Assembly (NCBI GenBank): GCA_020081605.1
Contig: JAHREC010000016.1
Span: forward strand, 434,001-498,000
Length of the DNA: 64,000 bases
Direction: 5' to 3'
Source of the DNA: Albifimbria verrucaria
Taxonomy: Eukaryota; Ascomycota; Sordariomycetes; Hypocreales; Stachybotryaceae
The notes under the pieces were generated by a model. It made no database searches, was not told where the DNA came from, and was given only the letters and a program-made list of their open reading frames with translations. Position numbers and translations under genes: made by a program. How positions within the stretch are numbered: the stretch's first letter is position 1; every line of letters starts with the position of its first letter. Positions 15,799-26,651 of this stretch are shown here, one piece after another.

Positions 15799-16655
15799 TT
15801 ATATACTTCCATAGGGACTAGAGTCAAGAATAGACAAGTTCCCACACAGCTTACAGCTTCGGGGTACAGGTGGGGAACGGCTCGGACGTTCAGTCCGGAT
15901 TGTCGGTGTCGCAGTCTCCGGCACACTGGTGGAGGGCAGCACGCCCACAGTGAGGTCGGCAGATCCCTTGCCTGCCTGGCCCTCGATGCCAACAATCATG
16001 TCCAAGTGCCTGCCCAGCTTGAGACCCGCCTTTGTGTATGCCTCAAAGTGACGAGTGGTGTTGATAGTACCACCGACGTGGCGTTTGGTACGAACGGACC
16101 AGAACTGGGGAACGTCGCAGTTCCAATAATGGAGGGCGCGTTGACTCTCCACTTCATCCAAACCTCATAGGTACCACCATCGGACTGGAAGGTACCATAG
16201 CAGGTGGAATTGGCATTGTCCGAGGGGTTGTGAATGCCGAATGACTCGATGACATACCACTCAACGAGGGGATCCATGGTCCAGCCGTACAAGGCCATGT
16301 ATGAGTTGCCATCGACCTGGAATTGACCAGTGTAGTTGACCCTCCTAAGAACGAATATTGTCAGCATCTTGAACAAACAGGCAGACAGCACAACAACAAC
16401 TCACGTGGTCTGCCCGGCCCTGTATCCCTTTCCAACAACAAAGTTACCTCCGGGCTTCTGGTCCCAGGTTACTTTGAAGTTGCCACGGGCACCACTGGTC
16501 CAGTTGAGGTTGGCATTCTCATTGGCCCAGTACTGAGTCTGGAAACTGTTCTGGCGGGCAACAATCGCATTCTCAATCTCTTCCTTGGTGGGAAGAGCGC
16601 TGGTTACACCAGCAGTGAGAGAGAGCGCAGAGACGAGAGAGGTGAAGAACTTCAT
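15799..16655 (-). CDS. GH11 endo-1,4-beta-xylanase, secreted, with C-terminal extension
   Basis: Hydrolyses xylan outside the cell. The signal peptide MKFFTSLVSALSLTAGVTSA is followed by a propeptide and the GH11 jelly-roll. Exon 1 ends in GYRAGQTT; a 60-nt intron occupies 16345-16404; exon 2 has RVNYTGQF, the nucleophile in PLVEWYVIE and, near 15980, the acid/base in VGIEGQAGKG. The frame breaks at the C-run (coding strand) 16107-16110, where one extra base links GTATFP to QFWSVRTKRHVGG. The catalytic domain should end at SADLTVG; as read, a Ser/Thr/Pro-rich tail of about 50 residues follows and stops at 15799. In the neighbouring frame the same DNA would encode a hydrophobic stretch and KRKKRR before a stop at 15768, so the true C-terminus is uncertain. 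No CBM1. Confidence 0.9.
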
Positions 16656-18437: not shown

Positions 18438-19287
18438 TTAGTTGCCATTCTTGCGGCCGTTGCCCTTGGCCTTAGCCCCTGGTGGTGGCGGGCATCAAGC
18501 TCATCACGCTTGCCGTTCTTGCGACCGTTACCCTTGGCCTTGGCTCCTGGTGGTGACGGGCTTCAATCTCAGCGTCGTGATCCTCGTCATCCACCTCTCG
18601 CTTGCCATTCTTGCGGCCATTGCCCTTAGCCTTAGCTCCTGATGGTGGCGGGCCTCGAGCTCGACTTCGTCCTCTTCATCCTCATCTTCAGCTCGCTTGC
18701 CGTTCTTACGGCCATTTCCTTAGCCTTGGCTCCCTGATGGTGACGAGCTTCCAGTTCAGCATCGTGCTCCTCGTCATCCTCCTCCTCTCGCTTGCCGTTC
18801 TTGCGTCCATTGCCCTTGGCCTTGGCTCCTTGGTGATGACGGGCCTCGAGCTCAGTGTCGTCTTCTTCAACGGCAACGTCTCTCTTGCCATTCTTGCGGC
18901 CGTTACCCTTGGCCTTGGCACCTTGATGGTGGCGGGCATCAAGTTCGTCACGCTTGCCGTTCTTACGACCATTACCCTTGGCTTTAGCTCCTGGTGATGG
19001 CGGGACTCAAGCTCATGTAGGTACTCCTCCTCCTCATCGTCTATTTCCTCTCGCTTGCCATTTTTACGGCCATTACCCTTAGCCTTGGCACCTTGGTGGT
19101 GGCGGGCATCGAGCTCGTCACGCTTGCCGTTCTTACGGCCATTGCCCTTGGCTTTAGCTCCTTGGTGATGGCGAGTCTCCAGGTCATCACGCTTGATGGC
19201 AATGGTCATGACACCATCATCTTCGACCTCTTCACGCTTTTGGTTGCGGCCATTCTTGCCCTTGGCCTTGGCGCCTTGGTGATGAGG
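18438..19287 (-). repeat. ten imperfect coding repeats with acidic spacers
   Basis: Conserved 54-base blocks encoding the HHQ...GKR unit. Their His-His-Gln ends lie near 19282, 19170, 19100, 18998, 18930, 18840, 18737, 18647, 18556 and 18488. Spacing varies from about 65 to 110 bases because the acidic spacers differ in length. Codon choice differs between copies while the peptide is constant, which points to selection on the protein. Confidence 0.85.
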
Positions 19288-19554
19288 CTAGAAATAATCA
19301 GTCACAACCCATTTGAGCTTTATTAGAGTTCACTAACCTCTCGCTCCTCGATGTCTCCAGACATAGGGAAGGCAATAGTCGGCACCATCATGGCAGCCAG
19401 TGGCGCCTAACAATCTCGTTAATTATTGCATAGGCGTATAGCAAGTATGACTTACGGCATAGCGGCAAATGATGCCACCCGAGGGGGTCACCGTCAATGA
19501 TAGACCCTGAGCGGCAAGGGCGCCAAGAATGAGAGCTGCAGTTGCGGAATGCAT
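18438..19554 (-). CDS. secreted Kex2-processed repeat precursor (candidate RiPP precursor)
   Basis: Secretory precursor built of repeated peptides. Start at 19554 gives a signal peptide (MHSATAALILGALAAQGLS). Two introns, 19407-19455 and 19288-19337, have clean GT-AG ends. The third exon encodes ten copies of a unit RHHQGAKAKGNGRKNGKR (first copy diverged, last copy ending NGN-stop). Each copy but the last is followed by Lys-Arg, the Kex2 protease site, and then a variable acidic spacer (DELDA, or longer Glu/Asp-rich stretches) ending in Leu/Ile-Asp/Glu-Ala/Ser/Thr. This is the architecture of ustiloxin/phomopsin-type precursors and of other Kex2-processed peptides. As deposited, the repeat exon changes frame at about 18990, 18719, 18638, 18546 and 18478; each break is one missing G in a coding-strand G-run, and the repeat resumes unchanged after it. 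Divergent from the UstYa-like gene at 20996. Confidence 0.75.
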
Positions 19555-20995
19555 GGTGAGATTCGGAATGAAAATAGGAAGTAGAAGCGAAAGCAGTCAA
19601 TGCTGTCAAGACGTAAAAGTGAAAGTGAAAGTGTACTGGTCTACCTGAGAACCAATGAGATGAATAGAAACGCGTCAAGCGGTGGAGTAGTGGAAAGGAA
19701 AGTTGACGTTGAATGATAGTGCTCCGTAACTCATCTGAGAGACTGAGCAGGTTTGAGAACTTTATACAGAACGTAGCTGTCAGTCGTCTCATCAGCGGCT
19801 CCTGACTTGCGGCCAGATGACAGGTCGGACATGCTCATGGCGCCTCGTTCGTGACAAGGTAGCATGAAAACAGCCGAAGCGGCAAGGTGGTGAAACTCCA
19901 GGAATACCATATGTCGTCTCAAAATGCCGAAGTGCCGGCACAGTGGAGGTGGGATGAACAAGTTCGGATGTTGCCTGCTATTTCCGTGCCGTTTTATCCA
20001 TAAAACTCCTGACGAAGTTGTTTGAACTAGCTGTGGTGGAGGGTTTGTGGGGCATTGTCTCGCAAATGCCGTTGGCCTGGGAGGAGGGCTCCTGGGTCAG
20101 ACACCAGGCCTGTCTTGCTAGTGATGGGACTGGGCCACAGGCAAGATTCAAAATAGGTGCAAGCGAAATAGTTCAGATTATTCGGTTTCACGCCAGTGTA
20201 GCTTATTGTTATGTCTAAAAACTTTATCAATTAACTACTTATTAGTTGGGGCCGTTGTGGATGAATCCCAACATAGAAATTTCCAATATCTCAACGTGGT
20301 TCCCTATAATGCCAAGCGATCGATGATCTGAGCCCAAAGTCTGGGCATGAAACAGAACGCTCTTCGCGCGCGCAAACTGTTCGCCAATCTGCTCGGATCG
20401 GCACTGCTCATTGGGCTCGCACCTTTGTCTGAACAGGGGCGAAGCTCTCCGCTGCGCTACGGTTATGAGACAAGCTTCAAACCTGGAGCAGGCACACCAG
20501 CCCCTGGTTCTGATTGCACCAACGACCAACTCGGTAAGTCTGTGTCGGTGACAAGCTTCCACTACTGCATTTCGTTAGACCCAGAAGCTTGTCTGCTCTG
20601 AATCGCACTCCCCACAACCCCACGCTCTGGTCTCTATGCGCCAATCAATCCGATAATGTCACTATGTCTGTACTATAACAGGAAATGTGCCGGGTTACTT
20701 CGTTCCATGTTTGTCTGACCATGGTTTGCTCTTGCGCTGTGGATATACAAAGAACAATTAGTTCAATTGTTGGTTGGCCCCGGTTGTTCAAGATTTGTTC
20801 TGGTTTCCTTCAAAGGACCAAGCAGGAAAGCCAAAACCTTTCATCCTACATGCTTGCAAAGCTCAATTCTCTTTACATTCCCACGCGCTGGACGCTCTGT
20901 CTTAATAACCCTTACATTGTTTCTTGTTACTATATTCGCCACCTTCTCTTTCATCATTTGTTTTCTTACGGATTTACTTGTAGCATCGCTTCGAA
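19555..20995. promoter_or_regulatory. shared divergent intergenic region, precursor / UstYa-like gene
   Basis: About 1.4 kb between two head-to-head genes. A TATAAA reading toward the precursor lies at 19761-19766, about 207 bases from its ATG. Short frames inside (19731-19961, 20242-20601) have no domain. A bidirectional promoter is inferred from geometry. Confidence 0.45.
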
Positions 20996-21901
20996 ATGCA
21001 TCAAGCATACGAGCCAATTCCGCTAGACGAAGAGAAGCAGTCCTCCCATCAAGGGTTAATCGCATCGTATGGGAGAAAAGTCAATGTCAACCATGATGGC
21101 AAGCTGTGGAAGGCATTAAGCTGGATCTGCCCGGCTATACTGTTCATAGCCTCCTTGGTCCTCTTCACAGCCTCCTATTGTCTACGATATGGTCAGCCAT
21201 CTGATTTATATTTTACAAGACTCTACTCGCCGTACTGTAAGCGACACAATCCCCAAGGCCTGGGTATGGCGATGTAACTAACTCTTGATAGCACCGGCTG
21301 CTGAGGTGGTTGAATACCAGACAGTGCGATACGATATCACGCCCGAGACAAAGAAGACGGAATATGTTGGTTATGGGCCCGAAGTGGATAAGGCTTGGGA
21401 TCATATCACATATGATGTTGGCGACCAGATGATCTCCAAGGAGGCGCTGGATCGTCTAGGCCTTGACCCCAAATCTCTAAAGATAACAGACCCTAAATCC
21501 GGCAAGGAGGGTTACCGAGTGGGAATTCAAGTCTTTCACCAGTTGCACTGCCTGAATCTTTTGCGTCAATCCACTTACGGAAAATACTACTCCCATCAAG
21601 GAGGCGATATTGAGGTGGAACCGGAAGATTTGAGAGGACATCTGGGTGAGTACAGGACCATTGTCAATGCCACCCCACAGGTTGAGAAAGTGCTAATACA
21701 TTTTTCTTATCAGATCACTGCATCGAGATACTTCGTGTAAGCCTCATGTGTCAAAGTGATATCGGAGTCTTCCCTTTCAAGTACTATGAAGGATATGAAG
21801 GTCATTGGCCCGATTTCAGCACATTGCACACTTGCCGCAACTTCAACGCTATACGAGACTGGGCATTTGAGAATGCCGTGGTATTTGGCGATGAAGAGTA
21901 G
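20996..21901 (+). CDS. UstYa-like oxidase (DUF3328), membrane-anchored
   Basis: UstYa-family proteins catalyse oxidative macrocyclisation or related oxidations of fungal RiPP cores and some non-ribosomal peptides. Three exons with introns 21237-21291 and 21646-21713 read cleanly, with no frame errors. A cytosolic N-terminus of about 40 residues is followed by one transmembrane segment (ALSWICPAILFIASLVLFTASYC) and a luminal domain. The family hallmark HxxHC is present as HQLHCLNLLR near 21541, and the second signature DHCIEILR is formed across the second intron; the conserved downstream HTC follows in exon 3. About 260 residues, the normal size. It lies 1.4 kb from, and divergent to, the repeat precursor and is the best candidate for its modifying enzyme. 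Confidence 0.9.
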
Positions 21902-22941: not shown

Positions 22942-23792
22942 ATGGCGTCCGACAAAATTACCCTCTATGACATTCCCAGCAAGGACCAGGGTTGTGCCTG
23001 CTGGTCATTGAACCCTTGGAAGAGTATGTGAGGCTTATCTGATCCCAAATAAACTGCCAGCTAACCGGAAAACAAAGTACGGCTGGCTATGAACTACAAA
23101 GGAATTGATTATGAGACACAATGGATAGAATATCCGGATATAGCCCCAACCCTCAAATCATTCGGCATACCTCCAGGAGAGGATGAAGACACACCATACA
23201 CAATTCCTGCAGTTCGCTTTCCAGACGGCTCATATGTTATGAACTCGAAGAATATCATTGAAGAGATCGAAAAGAGATACCCGTCGCCCGATTATCCATC
23301 TCTCTATCTGGACGACCCCAGTACGAAGCGTGCTTTCACTTTTATCGGCGAGTTTTTGGTAAACTGAAAGGCAATCTACTGCCGGCAGTGCCAGTGAAGG
23401 TTCTCACTGACGTGAGCGCTGAGTACTTTGAGAGAACCAGAGCTAGCTGGTTCGGAATGAGTCTTCAAGAACTTGCCAAGAAAACTGGAGGCGAACAGGC
23501 TTGGACTGACAGCCAAGAAGTCTTTCAAAGGCTTGCTGACGCACTGAAAGAGACTGAAGGCCCCTTCTTCCTGGGAAACACAGGCAAGTGATGCTAGATG
23601 TATTTGGGAAACAAGACTTCAGTGAACTAACATTTAGCTCGAATAGTTTCATACGCCGACTTCGTCATTGTGAGTTTCTTACACTTCCTCAGGCGAATGG
23701 TGGGAGACGAAGATTTTAAGAGGATAGAGGTATGGCCCGAGGTTGTTGCTCTTTATGAGGCATGTGGAAAGTGGCTTCAGAATGATAAATGA
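22942..23792 (+). CDS. glutathione S-transferase
   Basis: Conjugates glutathione to electrophiles or acts in thiol chemistry. Start MASDKITLYDIPSK. N-terminal thioredoxin-like fold with GCACWSLNPWK near the active-site position, the TIPAVRFPDGSYVMNSKNIIEEIEKRYP glutathione-binding segment containing the cis-Pro, then an all-helical C-domain ending with YADFVIVSFLHFLRRM and a terminal helix. Introns: 23024-23077 (GT-AG) and 23584-23646, which appears to be GC-AG (gcaagt) with an actaac branch point. The T-run 23352-23356 is one base short; restoring it links FIGEF to GKLKGNLLPAVP. A GST-like protein is also annotated in the ustiloxin cluster (UstS, from memory), so its position next to a UstYa-like gene may be meaningful; a generic detoxification role is equally possible. 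Confidence 0.85.
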
Positions 23793-24638
23793 TCATCCCA
23801 TACAGTACTAAATCCATAGAGCATTAAGAAAAGAATCTTCTAAAATGACCCCCATACAGCCACCAGAGGGATACTGTCAATGAGTTGGTACGGTGACTCC
23901 AGAAGCTTGTTCCTTAACCTGTTGTATAATAAACATGTTACGCAGGACTGGAAATCTTCCCAGACTTGTCAGGAACAATATTTTGAGCTGTGGCAAAAGT
24001 ATTGCCAATCTCTAGAGCTCGAGTACCATCAATCTGCATGCATATTTTTACACGACATGAAACAATGCACAACTCCATAAGTCAATCACATCGGCACGTT
24101 AAGAGATCCATCCTGTAGCGTCAAGAAACTATTGCAATCATTTTCGCGCCAATACTGCTACACATCTTTCCCAACTCGCAAACGTTTTCCCATTACGAAA
24201 ATGAGGGGTAAGACATTGCCACCAACAAGCAGGTTCGTCAAGATCGACATTGCATTTGGGGTCCATGCAACCATACCATGACCAACAGTTCAAGGCAGCA
24301 GTACTTGCTTGTTCGTTGGCACTAGAATAGCCCAAAACAGAGACCCCGCAGCACTTACACGCTGATTGTGGTTTATCGCCGAATATTTGACCCCTCTCTT
24401 TTCCGTTGAAGGTGTGATGGTTTTCCTCTTTGTTACAAGATAGATATTTGTTGTCTGACGAACACGCCTAGTTTCCAATCGCCAAAAGCTCGCCCAGGCC
24501 CAAATCCAGTGTCCTCAAGCTTCCAGTAAGACTCGAATTGCCCACATTACACGTAACCAACACTAGATATACCGTTGCTTACGCCGATTCAGAAAGACAG
24601 TGTTATTCTGCCCCTACTTCCAAATTTGTGATGGAATA
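23793..24638. other. intergenic, nothing recognised
   Basis: Short frames on both strands (23880-24080, 24138-24478) without domains. Confidence 0.4.
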
Positions 24639-25200
24639 ATGGCTTCTCCCCAAAATCGACCAATGAATGGCGCAACGAATCTCCCACCATTAAAGGCGAC
24701 GACACGGATGACGGCCAGAGCGAGGCCTCAGAACCCGCCACGGATGCGTCATCGTCAAATGGGCATGGTTCTTGCGACTGTTGCATAACTGGTCGACACG
24801 AAACTATCCCCTGCGCAGAGTCTACATATCTCATCAAACATAGGGCGTTGGGGCGATTCTTGGTTATCAAGGCAGGGAAACTGAGCCTCCAGTCATCAAT
24901 CGATGGACAAGTGGGCTCGCACTGGACTTGTGTGGAAGAATACGGCTGGCTCGGATTCCAGAACGTCGTGTCAGGCCGTTATCTCAGCTACCGTCCCAAC
25001 TCTAGACAAACTTTCAGCACGGCTGGAGACTTTTCCAGCGATGGTCAATATTTTGTTGCGAAGCCTCACACCTCTGGTGGGTTTGGACTTTATGCGCTGT
25101 GGAGAGACAAATTGAAAAAATGGAACTCAAAGCTACTGTTTCCTCTGGTGACACCAACTCAGAGTCAGAAACGACGTGGAGTTTTGTGACAGTTAACTAA
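24639..25200 (+). CDS. beta-trefoil/fascin-like protein, copy 1
   Basis: Cytosolic single-exon protein of about 185 residues, paralogous to the gene at 26013. Shared motifs in order: STYLIKHRALGRFLVIK, GSHWTCVEEYGWLGFQNVVSGRYLSY, a GGxxLxxL-type segment and a C-terminal WSFVTVN. This pattern matches a fascin/beta-trefoil-type family found in many moulds, whose function is not established. Start at 24639 (MASP) chosen because one extra C at 24648-24651 joins it to the acidic linker before the domain. A second break lies in the A-run 25115-25120; without it the last strands are replaced by an unrelated sequence ending near 25189. A Cys-rich CDCC stretch lies just before the domain. Confidence 0.65.
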
Positions 25201-26012
25201 CCCAGTATTCTGTTTAAAAGGGTAAAATTGGACGGCTTAAACATTCGCTGATGCTCTCTGCCGTCTCATTTTGGAGTCGCAAATGCACTGACAATGCCGA
25301 CATTCTTATTTCCTAGATTCGCGCTTTAGAATCACCAACCAGTATGTTTCTGGGGCGTTTGTATGCTAAGGATCTGATTGTAGTTGTATTGAGTACTTGG
25401 TTTGGGTTCTTGAAGCTCGCACCGCATCAACCTGGACGCATCTCAATTTTTAGAACAAATGCGTGAGTGTAGATTGATATGTGAACCAAGTGAAGCGTGG
25501 GCATACATTCTTAAGAAGGAAATTGCTAGCCAACTACTCTGGATGGTATGAATTGTTAGAGCTACAGGCTTCTAGAGTGGTATCACCTACTTGTAAGGCA
25601 CATACATCATCTAAGATTGAGCGGCCGCTCACGCATGTCAAGAACCTGACAGCTGGCGACTTTCAGAAGCGGCACCTGTAAAGTCCCAACAGTACCAGCA
25701 CCAGCCAGTGGCCAAGGCAAGGCATTCGTGTTTTGTGTTTTTTCTTTCTTCCCTTTCATCCGCCTCGACGCTCTCTCACCTCTCATCTTTTTGTCTTTCG
25801 AAACATCCACGGTCTTTGCACAGTGAACATACTGAGGGCTCATCGCTGGCATCGACTCAGGGCTGCCCTTGCTTACTACTGGTATAACATTTCCTCACAT
25901 GAACAAAGGACTGTGTGTCATTGACGTGAGGATACATAGGCACAAAGTGAACAAAGAGCACCAGCGAGAGCTGCATTGACCCTCCCGAGCACCACGGTAG
26001 GAATCGCCTCAA
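25201..26012. other. intergenic, nothing recognised
   Basis: Spacer between the two trefoil paralogues; only shadow frames. Confidence 0.4.
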
Positions 26013-26651
26013 ATGGCCCAAACACGGGGATCGACCATCGTAAAGACCACCACCAGGCCCAAACGACTATCAATCCGCGTCGTGCCAAGTCGAACGAAGC
26101 GTCGCGTGCTTGACCGGGCAGACGCCGCCGCGAAGGACTCCGTGCGAAGTTCCCCGTACAAAATGACCACGTCCCAAGAAGACGCGTCAAACCACGCTGC
26201 ACAAGCCGACGGTGACGGCGAGAACCAACCGACGTTCCCCTATGCCGGCTCGACCTACTTTATTCGCCACCGGGATACGGGCAAATTGATCGTCGTGGAG
26301 GAAGGCCGACCTTCGCTCAAAGGGCATCTTTCCCAAGTTGGAATCCATTGGGCATGCGTTGAAAGCGACGGGTGGCTCGGCTTCCGCAATACAATTTCAG
26401 GATGTTACCTCGCCCGCAACCACAAGGATGAGCTCGGCACTGATACTCCCACTCACAACGACAAGGGATACTTCGTGGTCAAGCCTGATCCCCGAGGCGG
26501 TCAGGAGGTCATGGTGCTTCAGAATCAGAAGCTCTGGCGCGTGACAGTCGCGGACGACCATGCGACCCTTGTCCTAACGGAAGGGAAGGGAGCAGCTTGG
26601 GACTTTGTGTGGGCCAACCAGACAGCAAGTGAGGCAGCTAGACAAGGCTGA
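26013..26651 (+). CDS. beta-trefoil/fascin-like protein, copy 2
   Basis: Intact paralogue of the preceding gene in the same orientation. The conserved domain begins at STYFIRHRDTGKLIVVEEG and includes HWACVESDGWLGFRNTISGCYLARN and a terminal AAWDFVWAN. The open frame starts at 26013 with a basic, R/K-rich leader; the internal ATG at 26163 (MTTSQEDASNHAAQ) looks like the more natural start because copy 1 has a similar acidic leader. Carbohydrate or actin binding are the usual roles of this fold; neither is shown by the sequence. Confidence 0.7.
   Translation: MAQTRGSTIVKTTTRPKRLSIRVVPSRTKRRVLDRADAAAKDSVRSSPYKMTTSQEDASNHAAQADGDGENQPTFPYAGSTYFIRHRDTGKLIVVEEGRPSLKGHLSQVGIHWACVESDGWLGFRNTISGCYLARNHKDELGTDTPTHNDKGYFVVKPDPRGGQEVMVLQNQKLWRVTVADDHATLVLTEGKGAAWDFVWANQTASEAARQG

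Follow-up and report, generated by a model that had tools for sequence, protein, structure and literature searches.

What does a fungus make when a gene for a repeat protein with a signal-like N-terminus stands head-to-head with a gene for a UstYa-family oxidase? The arrangement occurs in a 64,000-nucleotide stretch of one contig (C13:434001-498000; hereafter the window) of the 48.4-Mb, 41-contig genome, and the initial annotation had read it as a candidate undescribed dikaritin-type RiPP locus. Our analysis supports the pairing of a Kex2-type repeat precursor with a UstYa-family enzyme, and leads to another view of its chemistry.

The repeat precursor and its reading frame

The precursor is encoded on the reverse strand by three exons separated by two introns, both with GT..AG ends. 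Exon 1 (19456..19554, 33 codons) supplies an N-terminus, MHSATAALILGALAAQGLS, that is signal-like by eye, similar in the homologues and alignable with all four of them, where the initial annotation saw a signal peptide; exon 2 (19338..19406, 23 codons) ends in GDIEERE, and the spliced reading matches RYAAPLALM and EPHHQG of the Pochonia protein. Exon 3 (18438..19287) holds ten near-identical units, HHQ followed by a GNGRKNG-type tail and ending in ...HHQGAKAKGNGRKNG, set between acidic spacers of variable length. Lys-Arg (KR) follows nine of the ten, and the last unit ends in NGN and a stop codon at 18438; our count thus reproduces the one first given. With tandem-repeat scores of up to 516 the array exceeds what chance would give, and, taken unit by unit in the local frame, its ten units and nine KR sites agree with the description of a KEP as at least three tandem repeats of at least eight residues between Kex2 sites (PMC7329392). 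No second copy of the array was found in the genome, the six matches to the unit all lying within the window array, and the Gaeumannomyces precursor as query detected no other locus, the one further match having E 1.54.

A feature unmentioned by the initial annotation is that the precursor, as assembled, is not one open frame: only units 1-3 share a frame, and shifts fall within units 4, 7, 8, 9 and 10, all five in the same direction. Were these changes real, the precursor would be a decaying gene, a reading that draws on their density (five per 850 bases, dense even for this assembly) and on the intact state of the UstYa gene and several other ORFs in the window. Against decay, a pairwise comparison of nine unit tails, each taken in its own local frame without any joining and unit 1 excluded for its different tail, gave 0, 0 and 110 differences at codon positions 1, 2 and 3, and this third-position-only pattern continues past the frame breaks. 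The one-way direction of the shifts and their placement within units in every case argue likewise, as do other genes of the same assembly: a GH11 xylanase gene is split at profile position 125 into two overlapping frames, a GST gene has its N domain in one frame and its C domain in another, a Kex2 P-domain gene lies in two frames 23 bases apart, and two of three DPPIV_N genes are split (into two and three frames), the third being whole. Because the differences are confined to third positions, the shifts run one way and other genes are split in the same manner, we put the breaks down to assembly noise with considerable confidence and regard decay as improbable. Programmed frameshifting within every broken unit was also weighed and rejected, since it leaves the split GH11, Kex2 and DPPIV genes unexplained.

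The assembly is apparently rich in small indels, so ORF-based calls made on it need care. Split conserved genes were recorded at window positions 15799-16655 and 23089-23591 and at C10:6622671-6622987, C8:1694789-1695911 and C41:359330-360408; a DEAD helicase gene (starting at profile position 13) and a kinase-ankyrin gene also appear split when their ORFs are read by eye.

The UstYa-family enzyme

The two genes share an intergenic stretch of 1441 bases from start codon to start codon (19555..20995) and are transcribed divergently. On the forward strand, the UstYa gene runs intact from an ATG at 20996 to a stop codon at 21901 in three exons: exon 1 (20996..21236) encodes a hydrophobic helix that is probably membrane-embedded, exon 2 (21292..21645) contains HQLHC and, of HLDHC, the initial H and L, and exon 3 (21714..21901) completes HLDHC and continues to the stop codon. 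The spliced product of 260 aa matches PF11807 with E 4.5e-53 over profile positions 14-220 of 220, which bears out the earlier description of an intact three-exon DUF3328 gene. Of the two signatures given there, HxxHC corresponds to HQLHC, and the other, reported only as DHC, is part of a second full HxxHC motif, HLDHC.

The enzyme had further been called divergent, a label that does not hold: a protein search found 257 proteins at E<=1e-5, and the best of the 120 listed, from Stachybotrys elegans, is 75% identical over the full length. Both HxxHC motifs are fully conserved, all six of their residues unchanged, across 35 of 35 aligned relatives; among the 120 listed, some of them short or oddly modelled, 116 carry at least one HxxHC and 103 at least two. 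A FastTree phylogeny of the query, eight paralogue ORFs from its own genome and 105 of the 120 listed hits (the other 15, shorter than 220 aa, were dropped, and long-branch warnings were issued) places the window protein with those of Stachybotrys elegans and Paramyrothecium foliicola with a local support of 100; with the high identity to the Stachybotrys protein, this makes the fungus probably one of the Stachybotryaceae. The listed proteins mostly group by related genera, as judged from names read by eye, which hints at vertical inheritance, and their spread over many genera hints at a role beyond that of strain-specific toxins.

As to mechanism, a guide is CctR, the DUF3328 hydroxylase of cyclochlorotine biosynthesis, described as a membrane-associated binuclear copper enzyme that acts on C(sp3)-H bonds (PMC12435403). 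The window enzyme shares with CctR the DUF3328 domain, two HxxHC motifs and an N-terminal membrane helix; the substrate of CctR is a non-ribosomal cyclic peptide, whereas that of the window enzyme is presumed to be ribosomal. Inert C(sp3)-H bonds are within reach of this family (PMC12435403), so its substrates need not be aromatic. UstYa relatives also serve non-ribosomal-peptide and polyketide pathways (PMC12048977), so membership of the family is in itself no proof of a ribosomal substrate, and it is the pairing that carries the argument. In the predicted model of one relative (mean pLDDT 77.8), a long N-terminal helix spans residues 32-64 and both motifs are helical; Foldseek with this model returned 0 PDB matches at E<=0.001, and the best hit of a structure-related sequence search was a polyamine transport protein at E 0.072.

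The genome contains about 22 UstYa loci, grouped from 35 profile matches, and only about 0.2% of it lies within 1.5 kb of any of these genes, a figure that speaks for the pairing. The Gaeumannomyces relative GGTG_01712 finds the window gene as its best match in this genome (58%) and a gene on C6 as its second (51%); around this nearest paralogue (C6:2366442-2367017) no KEP array was found within about 5 kb. At the C6 locus (about 2.3666-2.3673 Mb) HQLQC replaces the first HxxHC, which reflects either the loss of a metal ligand or an error in the sequence.

Homologous pairs and the conserved di-histidine core

The initial annotation had proposed searching for relatives of the precursor. The open ORF alone retrieved nothing at E<=1 in a search whose length limits would exclude longer relatives, and the query was therefore lengthened. 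It then found four proteins: VFPPC_13284 of Pochonia chlamydosporia (E 3.6e-22), FGADI_5762 of Fusarium gaditjirri (E 4.4e-10), GGTG_01713 of Gaeumannomyces tritici (E 1.4e-8) and, as a partial homologue, F53441_715 of F. austroafricanum (E 7.9e-5). Two of them have locus tags consecutive with those of UstYa relatives (FGADI_5763 and GGTG_01712), an adjacency read from the tags, not from DNA. In F. austroafricanum the UstYa relative F53441_13638 is not adjacent by tag to the precursor, and no Pochonia protein is among the 120 listed UstYa relatives. Co-conservation, which had been put forward as a test of the locus, is thus found in half of the homologues, a mostly favourable outcome. The window genes form a KEP-UstYa pair with an aromatic-free di-histidine core that is seen in three genera, in two of them by consecutive locus tags.

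All 25 units from the five species (10, 3, 6, 4 and 2; those within one protein are not independent) read [LIV]xxR(xP)HH[QR]. HHQG (once HHRG) follows the Arg or xP, the frame-broken window units being read only as far as HHQ, and it is kept far better than the tails, which are unlike across species and either Lys/Ala/Gly-rich or Asn/Ala-rich. Since only HHQG (once HHRG) is kept over five species, we take it to be the conserved core; the earlier equation of the whole unit with the core was too wide. Tyr, Trp and Phe are absent from the window unit and from the 573 residues that the four homologues have beyond their first HH.

The residues that precede HH suggest how the units could be released. 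Kex2 takes Arg at P1 and favours aliphatic residues at P4, and LxxR has served as a broadened form of its motif (PMC8528282). Some window units fit this poorly: three of the ten read LDAR, which puts a disfavoured Asp at P3, and seven of the ten have Ala at P2, a residue outside the five best alternatives named for that position (PMC8528282). Ste13 removes xA and xP dipeptides (PMC7329392), and its signatures occur in KEPs (PMC6339444), so Kex2 at LxxR together with Ste13 at xP would make every unit begin with HHQG. A profile search of the genome located a Kex2-like P-domain gene at one locus and DPPIV_N genes at three.

The putative product and its relation to known systems

We propose that the locus is a RiPP-type KEP-UstYa pair with a di-histidine core in which the window UstYa enzyme modifies the window precursor, a reading to which we give slightly better than an even chance. 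The precursor would enter the secretory pathway, Kex2 would cut after each KR and after the aliphatic-x-x-Arg preceding each HH, a carboxypeptidase would trim the KR, and a Ste13-type dipeptidase would take off xPro where present, so that each unit would yield a small cationic peptide starting with HHQG (here HHQGAKAKGNGRKNG). The neighbouring UstYa protein, probably a membrane-anchored binuclear copper enzyme, may then oxidise this peptide, most likely at the conserved HHQG, by a cross-link, a hydroxylation or another change. The units, the pairing, the consecutive tags in two genera, the conservation of HHQG and the residues before it, the third-position-only variation and the enzyme motifs are observed; on this sequence basis the product is probably a modified secreted peptide, and secretion, each cut, the copper, the modification with its site and any role are suggested. 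Besides the residues that Kex2 disfavours, the service of UstYa relatives in other pathways and the HH contents given below, it weighs against the proposal that two of the four precursor homologues lack an adjacent UstYa gene as far as seen and that the assembled precursor has five breaks in its frame.

The same two homologues speak for a possibility that we consider real and distinctly less probable: that the peptides are secreted unmodified, as linear, cationic, histidine-led molecules for metal binding, antimicrobial action or signalling, and that the UstYa enzyme has another substrate. In the survey of Umemura 2020 (PMC7329392), 1758 of 7878 KEPs, only 22%, count a DUF3328 gene among their 15 nearest neighbours, where it is most often the next gene, and HH content is much alike in KEPs with DUF3328 (5.7%) and without it (3.9%), being only slightly higher in the former. 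The tails, Lys-rich or Asn/Ala-rich and free of aromatic residues, would suit such peptides as well. What argues against them is the head-to-head arrangement in the window together with the consecutive locus tags in two other genera, and the much better conservation of HHQG than of the tails.

How far the term dikaritin applies depends on the definition. In the broad sense a DUF3328 enzyme defines the class (PMC12048977), and here a DUF3328 enzyme with two HxxHC motifs stands beside a repeat precursor with KR sites, as in the ustiloxin, phomopsin and asperipin-2a pathways; the pair is therefore dikaritin-type by class definition, and by chemistry it is not. A tyrosine-ether macrocycle like those three compounds would accord with the repeat precursor and its UstYa partner, one DUF3328 protein being sufficient for asperipin-2a (PMC7329392), and Tyr occurs in 65.6% of repeats of DUF3328-linked KEPs in the same source (PMC7329392). 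The window core, by contrast, has no aromatic residue, which makes the dikaritin chemistry assumed in the initial annotation very improbable: one spacer does hold a Tyr (EEEEYLHELES), in a single unrepeated place, and this reading is contradicted unless that residue is used. The ustiloxin and phomopsin clusters also possess an S41 peptidase gene. A tyrosinase gene belongs to both as well (PMC7329392), and the genome has 69 tyrosinase matches and one S41 match, none of which is on the contig of the window. A further difference from the dikaritins as noted is that homologous pairs occur in other genera.

The precursor resembles those of ascomycete alpha-pheromones in its Kex2-bounded repeats and in the Ste13-suited xP before some units. 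The core of the alpha-pheromone contains Trp, and the window units have none. Pheromone KEPs are almost never near a DUF3328 gene (PMC7329392), and in the window the UstYa gene is 1.4 kb away. Closer in description are the KEP types G-3 and G-8, which are DUF3328-linked and have di-histidine motifs accompanied by P (PMC7329392); the window pair shares with them a signal-like N-terminus, Kex2-bounded repeats, an adjacent DUF3328 gene, HH and a P near some units. Fusarium, Pochonia and Gaeumannomyces are outside the genus lists of these types in the available text, and the comparison is by description only. Genus overlap was dropped as a link to G-8: it was 8 of 18 for G-8, 4 of 20 for G-3 and 8 of 18 for the control type G-7, which lacks DUF3328. 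KEP-UstYa pairs are thus an already recognised kind, di-histidine types included, and the aromatic-free window pair is a variant; the earlier "undescribed" was too strong as to kind, two di-histidine types of KEP-DUF3328 pair having been tabulated in 2020 (PMC7329392). Other conserved KEP motifs are named in the available text of Le Marquer 2019 (PMC6339444), HHQG not among them, and the unit strings, HHQG together with KEX2 and the homologue locus tags had no mention in open-access article texts, a body that excludes supplements and most subscription papers.

The known ribosomal UstYa products are built on an aromatic residue, and a histidine-based pathway, if true, would give the first known product without one. 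The known toxins of this kind start from a tyrosine that these peptides do not have, so the product may be a different, histidine-based one. More speculatively, the HHQG precursor and the widely kept UstYa enzyme might together give an N-terminal His-His that is cross-linked or oxidised by a binuclear copper enzyme, to form a secreted copper-binding or hormone-like peptide. Five species retain the aromatic-free HHQG core, three of them with a UstYa relative next to it, and this makes it a tangible candidate substrate, its likely ends included, for a family of copper enzymes whose chemistry is just beginning to be understood.

Around the pair, the GST gene follows the UstYa gene and the GH11 xylanase gene lies beyond the precursor; a P450, a short-chain dehydrogenase and a flavin monooxygenase-like ORF are farther off. 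Two similar open frames close together (24632-25189 and 26001-26651) have no Pfam match at E<=0.001. Among 30 UstYa loci scanned, several of them overlapping, two others lie within about 1.5 kb of KEP-like arrays unlike the present one. One array, with units like DDVIVADGFKKR, is at about 502.8-503.2 kb of C13, just past the window end, with UstYa matches at C13:501634 and 505275; the other, with Trp-containing units like DADAAWVFTGGNVKREET, is near a UstYa match at about 1.5642-1.5645 Mb of C22. Elsewhere in the genome, at C33:327217-334664 and C8:184829-186888, UstYa and tyrosinase matches are neighbours, an arrangement like that of ustiloxin-like clusters.
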